Shown: positions 21,958-25,251 of the stretch, in pieces | Layout: the number at the start of each line of letters is the position of its first letter | How positions within the stretch are numbered: the first letter of the stretch is position 1 | Source of the DNA: Rhodanobacter glycinis | GTDB lineage: Bacteria; Pseudomonadota; Gammaproteobacteria; Xanthomonadales; Rhodanobacteraceae | Length of the DNA stretch: 64,000 nucleotides | NCBI RefSeq assembly: GCF_006438785.1 | Contig: NZ_RCZB01000001.1 | Location: 124,001 to 188,000, forward strand | Direction: 5' to 3' | The notes under the pieces: generated by a model | What the model was told of the DNA's origin: nothing | Seen by the model: the letters and a program-made list of their open reading frames with translations, nothing else | The model's database searches: none | Translations under genes and position numbers: made by a program

Positions 21958-23739
21958 TCAGGCTTCGACCAGGTTGTCCTTCTCGGTATCGGCGATGACC
22001 CGATTGCGCCCGGCGCGCTTGGCGCGATAGAGCGCTGCATCCGCTTCCTTGCAAAGCCGTTGCAACTCGTAGCCGGAACTGTCGGTGGAGGCCAGGCCGA
22101 CGCTGGCGGAAATCGATATGCCATCTCCATCTTCTTCCATCGGGGTTGTTCCGATGGTAATCCGGATGCGATTGGCGATATCCATACCCTGCTCGCGAGA
22201 ACACTCGTGCAGCAGGATGCCGAATTCCTCGCCGCCCAGGCGGCCAAACAAGTCGGTGGGGCGCAGGTGCTGCTGGCAGATGGCGACGGCACGTTTCAGC
22301 ACGGCATCGCCCATGGCGTGGCCATGCGTATCGTTGACCTGCTTGAAGTGGTCCAGGTCGATCGATACCAGGCAGGCATGGCCCAGCTTTTTCTGCAGCA
22401 GGCGCAGGACCCGCTCGGCTTCGCTGATGAAATGCTGGTGGTTGAAGATGCCGGTAAGGCTGTCATGGTGGGACAGCCGCTTGAAGCCAAGCTGCGAGCG
22501 CTTGAGTCGGTAGAGCCAGAGCACGATGGAGGCGAGGGCCATCAATAGCAGCGCGATGTACAGCCGGCTGGTCTCCACTGCCTTGGTGTCCAGCGCCTGC
22601 TGCAACCTCAGGACGCTGTTCTGCTTGCCGAGCGCTTCGGTCTCCAGTTTGTGGGCAAGTACCTGCTGCTCGACTGTCTGATAGGCCAGTGCCTGCGCGG
22701 CAGCATCGTCGATCGCGCCTTTGTCCTGCGTGACGTACTGCTCGTAGTAGGAGAGCGCGGACGCCATGTTGCCGCGGCGCTTCGCGATCCGGTAGAGCAC
22801 CTCGTACGCGTTCTTCTGCCAGTCGTTGATCTCGCCAGGTCTTGCCAGTGCCACCGCTGTCAGGGCCGCCTTGCGGGCGTCGTCGTCCCTGCCCATTTCT
22901 TCATAGGCCTGGGCGCGGTGCACCAGCGCTGACAGGGTATGCGGGTAATAGTGGTTTTTCAGAATGCTCGGTGCCACGCGGTCGAGCAGCGTCAGGGCCT
23001 TGGCCGGCTGGTGGTCTTCCAGATGGAGGGTAATCAGGATGAGTCGGGCAGCAGTGGCGTAGATGGGTTGCTGAGCCGCGTCACAGGTATCAATGGCCTG
23101 CTTCAGATCGGGGCTCGAAGAAGTCAGTTTCTTCGCGTTGTAAAGCGCTGCAACCCGCTTGTAGTGGGGGTCGCACAGGCTGACACCTGCCGGAACCGTG
23201 TCCTCCATCATGCGGGCGTACTGGATGGCCAGATCGGTTTGGCCGGCCAGGTTCAGCATCTGGGACAGGCCGCTTAGCACCTGGAAGCGTGTTGTCCTGT
23301 CGTGGATCTGAGGCAGATCGGTCGCCAGCTGTTGAGCCAGTTTGAAGGCGTCTTCATAGCGGTGACTGCCGGCCAGGTTGGTCAGGAGAACAACCGATGC
23401 TTTTGCGGCAAGCGTCGGATCACCCGAGCGATCAATCACGTCGCGCAAGGGCTTATTCGCCGCCCCGAAGTTGCCTTCCAGCGATACCTCCAATGCGTCC
23501 AGATATTGCAGTTGCCATTGTTCGGCGGTTGTCAGTGGGGGGGACTCGCGATGAATCTGCACCAGTCGTTGGGCGAACTGTCGGTGGTCCTTGACGCGTA
23601 GATTCTCGGTCTGAGCCAGAAAGCTGCCCGGATCGGTGATCTTGCCGGTATCGGCGGCATGCCCGGTTTGAATCAGGATGCATAGAACCAAGCCCGCCAA
23701 GGCGGTGCCTGGTCCTCTGCGTTGTCGCCAAAGTGTCAC
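21958..23739 (-). CDS. Membrane TPR-GGDEF diguanylate cyclase, third gene of the borosin-like operon
   Basis: The product has 593 residues from a GTG at 23739, 11 bp after the stop of the precursor-like gene. It has a signal peptide (1-29), a periplasmic helical-repeat region (about 35-380), a coiled coil, and a TM helix YIALLLMALASIVLWLYRL near 398-416. The cytoplasmic GGDEF domain has LGGEEF with GGEEF at 502-506. An intact inhibitory site RPTD lies just upstream, so both catalysis and product inhibition should work. Spacing puts it in one transcript with the methyltransferase and precursor genes. It may connect that pathway with c-di-GMP. Confidence 0.92.
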   Translation of the reverse strand: MTLWRQRRGPGTALAGLVLCILIQTGHAADTGKITDPGSFLAQTENLRVKDHRQFAQRLVQIHRESPPLTTAEQWQLQYLDALEVSLEGNFGAANKPLRDVIDRSGDPTLAAKASVVLLTNLAGSHRYEDAFKLAQQLATDLPQIHDRTTRFQVLSGLSQMLNLAGQTDLAIQYARMMEDTVPAGVSLCDPHYKRVAALYNAKKLTSSSPDLKQAIDTCDAAQQPIYATAARLILITLHLEDHQPAKALTLLDRVAPSILKNHYYPHTLSALVHRAQAYEEMGRDDDARKAALTAVALARPGEINDWQKNAYEVLYRIAKRRGNMASALSYYEQYVTQDKGAIDDAAAQALAYQTVEQQVLAHKLETEALGKQNSVLRLQQALDTKAVETSRLYIALLLMALASIVLWLYRLKRSQLGFKRLSHHDSLTGIFNHQHFISEAERVLRLLQKKLGHACLVSIDLDHFKQVNDTHGHAMGDAVLKRAVAICQQHLRPTDLFGRLGGEEFGILLHECSREQGMDIANRIRITIGTTPMEEDGDGISISASVGLASTDSSGYELQRLCKEADAALYRAKRAGRNRVIADTEKDNLVEA

Positions 23740-23750
23740 GTCGCGTCTTT

Positions 23751-24041
23751 CTATCGCTTCGACAGCGTATCGTTGTCAGGCTCGGACGGCTGCGATGAAT
23801 CGGCATCGCCCTGATCAGACTCCTCGTCTTCATGTCCCGGAGAATGGACGATCTGCGGCTCGAATCTCGGCTTGTTTCCAAGCTCTTCGGAAAGAAGCGA
23901 GCTATTGCCCGCAGCGACGGCTGCCTTCAGGGCTTCTGACGCATTCGCCTGTTCGAGGATCGGTGCAAGTTCCTCGGCGGACGCATGGCGCAGCGAAGCG
24001 TCCTGGCCGATGGTGCTCAGCAGTTCAATCGTGTCTGACAT
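23751..24041 (-). CDS. Candidate split-borosin precursor peptide (96 residues)
   Basis: It starts at the ATG at 24041, preceded by a strong AGGGGGAAAAC. Residues 1-55 look like the helical borosin-binding domain: LLSTIGQDASLRHASAEELA parallels LGQDAQL in SonA as I recall it. The segment QIVHSPGH (63-70) resembles the LVISHGNGD-type C-terminal core of SonA, in which backbone amides near L and I are methylated. A very acidic tail, EDEESDQGDADSSQPSEPDN, follows and is longer than in SonA. It lies 39 bp downstream of the methyltransferase. The assignment rests on context plus motif similarity. The product itself is unproven. Confidence 0.7.
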   Translation of the reverse strand: MSDTIELLSTIGQDASLRHASAEELAPILEQANASEALKAAVAAGNSSLLSEELGNKPRFEPQIVHSPGHEDEESDQGDADSSQPSEPDNDTLSKR

Positions 24042-24080
24042 GTTTTCCCCCTGTGATCCCGTTATGCGGAAGGCACCTGC

Positions 24081-24917
24081 TCAGGCGCTTTCCGCGACCA
24101 GTTGCTCATCAAGCGCTGCCAGCCGGGCACGGATCAGCCTATTCTGCTTCAAAGGCGCTGCGGGTGGCAGTACTACAGTTTCTTTGGCGGTCATCGCAAT
24201 CGTTGGCAAGTCACGCAGAGCCACGCGCTGGATATCCGGGCGTTGGATCGGCAGTGTGGCCGCCGCATAGATGAGCACCTCGTGATCCAGCGGATAGTCC
24301 TGCGCGAGCACGTCCACCAGCACCTGGCGGTAGGCCGAGCCCGTCGTGAAGCGGGTCAACGAGAGGTCGCCAACCAGCCCGACCTGCCAGAGCACCAGAT
24401 AGCCCGTGGGGTCGATACGACGCTCGTAGAACAGCAGCTGGCTGGCTTCGAAGTGCTGGCAGCCAAAGCGGCCGGGATCGATGCCCAAATCAGCGTACAG
24501 GCAGTCCTCGGCGGAGATGCCGGGCTCCATGTGGGCGTGAAAGCCTTCCGCACGGGCTACTTCGATCACCTTGTGCGGCGACCAGGCGAATACCCCCGGG
24601 TGTCCGTAGAACACGCCGCAGACGCGTTTGCCCGCGCGGACCTCGGTCATCATCACGTCGACCCACTGCTGGTAGGTGACCCTCCGCGACTTTCCCTCGG
24701 CGTAATAGGGATGCAGGCTGCGCACATCCGGGTGCATGCGTTCCAGCCACAGCTCCACGACGCCATCGGACAGTGCGGCGAACACCACGTCAGCCTGCTC
24801 GATATGGCTGCGTGCCAGCGGGGTGAGGTGGGAGCCCAGGGTCATGCCCAAGCCAACGCAGGCCAGGCTGCCGCGTCGGGCGCCGTTCGATGGCGGAATA
24901 GTCAGCGTGTCCATCAT
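24081..24917 (-). CDS. Borosin-type peptide alpha-N-methyltransferase (tetrapyrrole-methylase fold, SonM-like)
   Basis: The product has about 278 residues from the ATG at 24917. A GTG at 24932 and an ATG at 24914 are alternatives, and none has a strong ribosome site. The Rossmann-like start GSLACVGLGMTLG, the catalytic region RRVTYQQWVD (Arg and Tyr four apart, as in SonM/OphMA), YGHPGVFAWSPHKVI, MEPGISAEDCLYADLGIDPG, and PLDHEVLIYAAATLPIQRP together match bacterial borosin methyltransferases far better than cobalamin or sirohaem enzymes. It would transfer SAM methyl groups to backbone amides of a peptide supplied in trans. The next gene encodes a fitting substrate. Confidence 0.85.
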   Translation of the reverse strand: MMDTLTIPPSNGARRGSLACVGLGMTLGSHLTPLARSHIEQADVVFAALSDGVVELWLERMHPDVRSLHPYYAEGKSRRVTYQQWVDVMMTEVRAGKRVCGVFYGHPGVFAWSPHKVIEVARAEGFHAHMEPGISAEDCLYADLGIDPGRFGCQHFEASQLLFYERRIDPTGYLVLWQVGLVGDLSLTRFTTGSAYRQVLVDVLAQDYPLDHEVLIYAAATLPIQRPDIQRVALRDLPTIAMTAKETVVLPPAAPLKQNRLIRARLAALDEQLVAESA

Positions 24918-25013
24918 TCGATAGTAGGACACTACCGGGGCTGAAGCACGCCGGGATTGAGAACGACAAAGCCGATGGGAAGAGTGGGGCGGCCCGGGTT
25001 TGACGGACAGCTT

Positions 25014-25251
25014 TCAAGCCTCCTTGCGGTCATCTCCGGCCGGCTGCCAGTGGAACAGCTCGTCGATCCGTTTGCCGAATACATGCGCGATACGGAAGGC
25101 GATGTCGAGCGAGGGCGAATAACGCCCCTGCTCGATCGCGGCGATGGTCCTGGCGGGTGAGGCCAACACGCTTGCCCAATTCGGCCTGCGTCATGTCCTG
25201 CGCGAGGAACCGCAGCAGGCGCACGTCGTTGGTCGAGGACTCAGTGGACAA
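25014..25251 (-). pseudogene. Frameshifted XRE-family regulator
   Basis: The helix-turn-helix start DMTQAELGKRVGLTRQ reads in one frame. The natural continuation TIAAIEQGRYSPSLDIAFRI, ending HVFGKRIDELFHWQ, lies in another. The switch is a single extra base in the GG dinucleotide at about 25149-25150. Removing it restores a complete regulator of about 65-78 residues. Such regulators typically pair with a small membrane protein, and one lies just upstream. This could be a real mutation or an assembly error. Confidence 0.8.

Follow-up and report, generated by a model that had tools for sequence, protein, structure and literature searches.

We report that a 64,000-nucleotide stretch of the Rhodanobacter glycinis genome (contig NZ_RCZB01000001.1, positions 124,001 to 188,000; "the window" below, in whose coordinates its features are given) carries three adjacent genes, M, A and G, which sequence comparison supports well as a split borosin locus. 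M is a predicted SonM-like borosin alpha-N-methyltransferase expected to methylate the backbone of the separately encoded precursor A, and G is a tetratricopeptide repeat (TPR)-GGDEF protein, predicted to be a membrane diguanylate cyclase. Comparison with related loci leads us to favour, with modest confidence, the reading that the product of this split borosin is a ligand controlling the adjoining TPR-GGDEF protein. The tight pairing of precursor and sensor is what makes the operon interesting.

Organization of the M-A-G unit

The genes lie on the reverse (-) strand in the order M, A, G and form one tight, co-directional three-gene unit. M (24081..24917, -) encodes 278 amino acids (aa) from an ATG, or 283 aa if an upstream GTG at 24932 is used; A (23751..24041, -) is a 96-aa open reading frame (ORF) located 39 nucleotides (nt) downstream of M; and G (21958..23739, -) starts 11 nt after the stop codon of A and encodes 593 aa including a GGDEF domain (Pfam E 8e-41). 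An ORF check found all three genes, among them the 96-residue protein 39 nt from M, at the places and on the strand given in a preliminary description of this DNA, and the motifs quoted there for M are all present (RRVTYQQ, YGHPGVFA, MEPGISAE, ADLGIDPG and PLDHEV).

The methyltransferase M

For M (METHYLTRANSFERASE) Pfam names the superfamily only (TP_methylase, E 3.4e-19), and several of the listed M homologues are labelled precorrin methylases by their sources, which is what one would expect of an ordinary tetrapyrrole methylase standing beside an unrelated small ORF with a GGDEF gene as a chance neighbour. Among solved structures (PDB), however, the best match is SonM (7ltc_A, E 2.1e-78; 129 of 253 aligned positions identical), which is the enzyme of the Shewanella oneidensis type IV split borosin (PMC8429565; PDB 7ltc and other entries), and all 25 matches are borosin enzymes (SonM, OphA, dbOphM and MroMA). 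The SonM active-site residues Y58, R67, Y71 and Y93 correspond to Y77, R83, Y87 and Y109 of M (283-aa numbering) and are invariant in 14/14 aligned family members, the window included (alignment A2); Y58, R67 and Y71 have been linked to stabilising the deprotonated amide (PMC8429565). Six NCBIfam models match M, none of them near its cut-off (best 35 bits vs 525), and the tetrapyrrole models score far below theirs (cobM/cbiF 21.2 vs 259.65; CysG 18.1 vs 400). At the level of sequence, the earlier proposal of a SonM-like enzyme thus survives the comparison with CobA/CysG-like methylases. Given these scores, the SonM match and the conserved active site, we reject the tetrapyrrole methylase, which is a very improbable explanation of this locus.

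The fused borosins OphA/OphMA, dbOphM and MroMA belong to the same methyltransferase family as M (E 2e-50 to 6e-48) and differ in that their core is joined to the enzyme (PMC11285071), while in the window enzyme and precursor are encoded separately, as in a split borosin.

The precursor A

Of 104 candidates found for A in the database, 99 match it at E <= 1e-3, the entry of A itself being counted. The homologues begin with a common leader some 55 residues long, after which come a short recurrent segment and an acidic, variable tail. With a family profile of 35 members, SonA, the precursor partner of SonM, ranks first among 177,635 distinct PDB sequences (E 0.089, gapless over residues 1-60). 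It was reached by the profile only: A alone gave no PDB match up to E 10, and no Pfam domain above cut-off. A sub-threshold Secretin_N score for A (17.6 vs 28.2 bits) was taken as chance. Among distant relatives, Pfam LigA matches at E 6.3e-7 in locus L173, above the cut-off, and below it in L157 (0.0043) and L267 (0.00038).

The model of A (mean predicted local distance difference test, pLDDT, 67) has five helices (residues 2-13, 15-18, 22-31, 36-44 and 47-54), in agreement with the leading helical domain suggested earlier, and the borosin-binding domain (BBD) of SonA is a five-helix bundle of residues 1-53 (PMC8429565). A Foldseek search with this model returned SonA as the best match (E 1.2), and 11/20 chains among the matches listed are SonA. 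Residues 1-54 of A (23880..24041, -) are therefore described here, on the five predicted helices, as a BBD-like leader. Profile, fold and helices agree and, beside a SonM-like gene, these lines of evidence from sequence and model, each weak singly, are together convincing for a predicted kinship of A with SonA.

SonA is methylated at L63 and I65 (PMC8429565), and when the gapless register is extended residues 63-65 of A face these two positions. At this place A homologues often carry the pattern PQ[IV]x[QNH]xPGHE, and nine short homologues (67-77 aa, six of them in L072) end here or soon after, which supports the segment of residues 57-71 (23829..23873, -) as the candidate core. In the window A this segment, in register with the SonA core, is of mixed composition and not strongly hydrophobic. 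The preliminary description had looked for a core near the C terminus; the candidate core is better put closer to the leader, around residues 57-71, since the C-terminal stretch (residues 72-96; 23754..23828, -) is an acidic variable tail. The tail is absent in the short homologues, and aspartate and glutamate make up on average 36% of the residues after position 70 in A homologues longer than 80 aa.

The window unit thus resembles SonM-SonA in having a separate enzyme and precursor and a five-helix leader. It differs in the length of A (96 aa vs the 71-aa SonA chain of 7ltc), its acidic tail and its core, and in that relatives of the unit can have several A genes per M. The copy number reaches seven in L072, and A-G units are repeated in L110, L112 and L114. 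In L072 (L072:6903-9159, Luteibacter) the seven precursors stand in a row, and it is the six short ones that stop at the core or shortly beyond it.

The TPR-GGDEF protein G

In G a TPR sensor spans about residues 30-389 (22573..23652, -), as seen from its model, TPR superhelix matches and hydropathy, and it is predicted to be periplasmic. Residues 1-390 were modelled as all helical (mean pLDDT 90), the N terminus appears signal-like by eye, and one hydrophobic segment, with a hydropathy peak starting at 390-396, follows the sensor. The GGDEF domain (PF00990; residues 423-580; 22000..22473, -) has the active-site motif GGEEF and an RxxD I-site, and among homologues in the fetched loci GG[DE]EF is kept in 84/84 and RxxD in 83/84; by these motifs G is predicted to be a diguanylate cyclase. 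Cysteines 189 and 219 of the window G are invariant in 43/43 aligned sensors (A3 alignment) and could perhaps form a periplasmic disulfide.

The sensor matches RapF by profile and Rap, NprR and AimR by fold, and it has the TPR superhelix of these proteins, a feature of low specificity. Rap, NprR and AimR are TPR peptide receptors of the RRNPP family. In RRNPP systems the receptor gene has a small peptide gene as its neighbour, and the receptors are cytoplasmic with a Rap-type or helix-turn-helix (HTH) output. The window shares with them the TPR superhelix and a peptide gene, A, adjoining a receptor gene, G. It differs in that G is predicted to be a membrane protein, with a GGDEF output behind the predicted membrane segment in place of the cytoplasmic Rap or HTH type, in that A is predicted to be backbone-methylated, and in its Gram-negative host. 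By analogy G may work like an RRNPP receptor, and we do not count it as a member of that family.

Conservation within the family and a second copy

Of 233 genomes in the family of the window, 162 carry M-like genes. Among named genomes a scan confirmed 535 places, the best 80 of which were compared as loci, and the order M, A (one or more), G was found in 76 of these 80. The four exceptions run into contig ends (L103 and L123), lack G (L105) or lack A (L118). The nearest named locus is that of Rhodanobacter sp. UBA5168, the M of which is 98% identical to that of the window. M, A and the G sensor were each found in the same 43 of 45 Rhodanobacter genomes, and in the other genera of the family the sensor was present in 18/18 M-positive and in 0/18 M-negative genomes tested. 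With the strong match of M to SonM, the many homologues of A and the recurrent gene order, the locus goes beyond chance; conserved order and co-occurrence likewise contradict, and lead us to reject, a chance neighbourhood of M, A and G.

A paralogous unit lies about 66 kb away in the same genome (L003:9073-12669, G000:C1) and has, in the same order, an M2 (78% identical to M across residues 19-276), two precursors of the A type and a G2. G has 28 matches in its own genome, and only the window G and G2 cover the sensor; with just the sensor as query, these two are again the only matches. The precursors of the M2 unit have cysteine-containing cores, and the ORFs upstream of it appear NfeD-like and stomatin-like by eye.

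The closest association is between precursor and sensor. Of 104 A matches, 103 have a G at most 2.5 kb downstream, and 79 of 87 sensor matches are preceded by an A at a distance of no more than 600 nt (median 87 nt); 58 of 62 M matches have an A within 1.5 kb. For fifteen G matches the contig shows no M within 8 kb, several of these lying at contig starts, and clear A-G pairs far from an intact M are present in genomes G149 and G173. From this near-universal adjacency and from the pairs distant from M we conclude that it is A and G that form the tight pair, and that M is probably able to act on distant A genes of the same genome. In G149 (L170:4020-5263) the intact A-G pair is immediately preceded by weak matches (E 3e-7 and 5e-6) to the end of M, with the intact M about 56 kb away; this remnant resembles a decayed M.

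Apart from M, A and G, no other family of ORFs of at least 100 aa is common near the unit, the most widespread being present in 10/80 loci and the next in 8/80 (non-overlapping longest ORFs were counted, so that wrong frames are possible in this GC-rich DNA and small genes are missed). In the window an ORF that is HTH-like by eye lies upstream of M (25014-25251, -), seemingly split across two frames by decay or sequence error.

Loci beyond the family

Across the entire class M-like genes are uncommon (10/369 genomes, two of them in the family of the window), as they are across the phylum (15/398), but one other gammaproteobacterial order has them in 94/394 genomes. We sampled 40 regions from 34 genomes with 42 M genes, chosen by genus label and then extended with further species and second copies; 38 regions belong to this other order, one to the order of the window and one elsewhere in the phylum. 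Within 2.5 kb downstream of the 42 M genes and on the same strand we found a TPR-GGDEF gene in 22 cases, a histidine kinase in 10, a TPR-only ORF in two and none of these in eight. Counted per locus and in any orientation, GGDEF with the sensor is present in 26/40, a histidine kinase in 9/40 and a TPR-only gene (L259 and L261) in 2/40. Pfam confirmed TPR together with HisKA/HATPase domains in L227, L229, L244, L256, L257, L258 and L262; in L234, where the contig end cuts the gene, only HisKA is above cut-off and the sensor profile matches, and the L263 kinase was outside the Pfam scan.

Eight matches of the class scan fall outside the family, and the sensor was found in two of these. In L173 (5791-11793) a precursor, a TPR hybrid histidine kinase, M and a TPR-GGDEF gene stand together, with the kinase and the TPR-GGDEF gene flanking M, and L174 (6778-11128) combines M and a precursor with a TPR kinase that bears receiver and Hpt domains. 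L177 and L178 have a more divergent M followed by an ORF that is transporter-like by eye, in place of precursor and sensor. In the other order the sensor profile matches in 18/27 M-positive and 0/20 M-negative genomes. At 1e-10 the profile misses nine of the 27 (G580, G604, G611, G613, G636, G668, G883, G928 and G971); some of the missed genomes have a histidine kinase partner and others a TPR-GGDEF partner by ORF-by-ORF scoring (L224, L245 and L265), while in G883 (L246) this scoring did not reveal a partner either.

Locus L264 has SonM at 77% and SonA at 63% identity and reads M, A, TPR-GGDEF, as do L265 and L224; we infer that the hosts of these three loci are Shewanella. The preliminary description could not name an arrangement with a GGDEF partner. 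That no longer holds, given this SonMA-like locus and the Figure 1 legend of PMC11395268, which lists a "GGDEF-sequence-containing domain" among borosin architectures; the likeness is judged from the wording of the legend. The GGDEF partner is a general feature and not a local oddity.

In a sister genus within the family of the window, a single protein of 872 or 829 aa unites TPR sensor, GGDEF domain and SonM-like methyltransferase (L266:6306-8921 and L267:6344-8830), and a BBD precursor is encoded upstream; these fusions were seen in the two genomes inspected of five with an M match, and may be the GGDEF architecture named in that legend. They are strong evidence that G and M share one pathway.

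A shared pathway could also run in the reverse direction, with G sensing an outside cue and cyclic di-GMP (c-di-GMP) timing the production or methylation of a borosin that has an unrelated target such as a competitor, a metal or a surface. The fusion, which places M at the output end of G, would fit this main rival, as would the breadth of ligands that TPR domains bind and the action of fungal borosins as natural products (omphalotin is nematocidal; PMC11285071). Nevertheless A is paired more tightly with G than M is, down to the A-G pairs distant from an intact M, and the replacement of GGDEF by a histidine kinase in other loci is more in keeping with a common input than with a common output. 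We consider this reverse control unlikely, while still a serious competitor.

Proposed role of the peptide

In the ligand reading, which we favour, M would dock the helical leader of A and N-methylate its backbone within about residues 57-71, and a general protease, none having been found in the unit, would release the core peptide. The peptide would then reach the periplasm, where it may bind the groove of the TPR superhelix of G and so change the synthesis of c-di-GMP; backbone N-methylation favours membrane permeability (PMC8429565). In other lineages this input would act on a histidine kinase in place of GGDEF. Extended beyond the window, and more tentatively, with a probability we would put a little short of even, gammaproteobacterial split borosins may be peptide signalling systems in which each backbone-methylated peptide is the dedicated ligand of an adjacent TPR receptor, the output is exchangeable (c-di-GMP mostly, a histidine-kinase phosphorelay in others), and one methyltransferase serves several peptide-receptor pairs and is fused to the receptor in one genus.

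Several observations weigh against these proposals. Taken alone the link between A and SonA is weak, both by sequence (E 0.089) and by fold (Foldseek E 1.2 with a pLDDT-67 model). The TPR fold is unspecific: proteins that do not serve as signal receptors (APPBP2 and subunits of the APC/C) match the sensor at equal or higher Z, and its best profile match is kinesin light chain. The periplasmic placement of G is unsettled, with a hydropathy cut flagging an N-terminal segment in 34/84 G proteins, and A has no signal-like segment (the top 17-residue hydropathy among 102 precursors is 1.77) while the sensor is predicted to be periplasmic. Eight of the 87 sensors lack an A upstream (G156, G190, G150, G151, G169, G186 and the fragments G181 and G182); in five regions of such sensors that were inspected (G151 not among them) A-profile fragments were seen in G169 only, in two frames.

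The co-occurrence data have weaknesses too. Sixteen of the 18 M-negative genomes of the family belong to one genus and are not independent, the M-negative set of the other order includes very small genomes, and 4/32 sensor matches in that order are far from any M. No sensor was found beside M in L232, L246 and L249 (3/40 loci), in L246 and L249 a BBD gene was likewise undetected, and neither a sensor nor a BBD gene was detected in L163 and L175-L179 (6/8 class-scan matches outside the family). L232 and L249 are possibly other borosin types. L232 (6365-7858) has a LigA-like match, just below cut-off, inside a long ORF that overlaps M in another frame, and in L249 (4343-7873) the TP_methylase domain lies within a 1177-aa open frame.

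A dedicated exporter or protease recurring in the unit was sought in the 80 loci and not found. This would suit a different scheme in which uncleaved, methylated A acts in the cytoplasm by binding G or some other partner, with N-methylation as a regulatory mark. When co-variation with the sensor was analysed, the core correlated with the sensor, the leader did so more strongly (r 0.59), and the tail correlated too (0.24); the stronger tracking by the leader would again suit uncleaved A, and all these correlations may reflect merely fast evolution of the sensor. The co-variation of core and sensor is suggestive only, i.e. compatible with a peptide ligand and not decisive. On the other hand the TPR domain is predicted to lie across the membrane (from the signal-like start seen by eye and the single hydrophobic segment before GGDEF), and binding of the leader by M suffices to explain the BBD. 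A role for uncleaved A is in our view improbable.

Relation to known borosins and implications

The window operon adds a member to the split borosins; GGDEF is already named in a borosin scheme (PMC11395268, Figure 1 legend), and the signalling role of these peptides is putative. Our literature search listed no paper proposing such a role, and since the main bacterial borosin papers are outside its coverage, this gives no evidence that the idea is unpublished. The strict association of precursor with TPR sensor in different lineages, with exchangeable outputs, offers a concrete and cheap hypothesis for the role of the peptide, and the recurrence of the unit across many related bacteria makes that role testable. 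If the ligand reading is true, ribosomal backbone-N-methylated peptides would join the signals that feed into the c-di-GMP and two-component pathways of Gram-negative bacteria.
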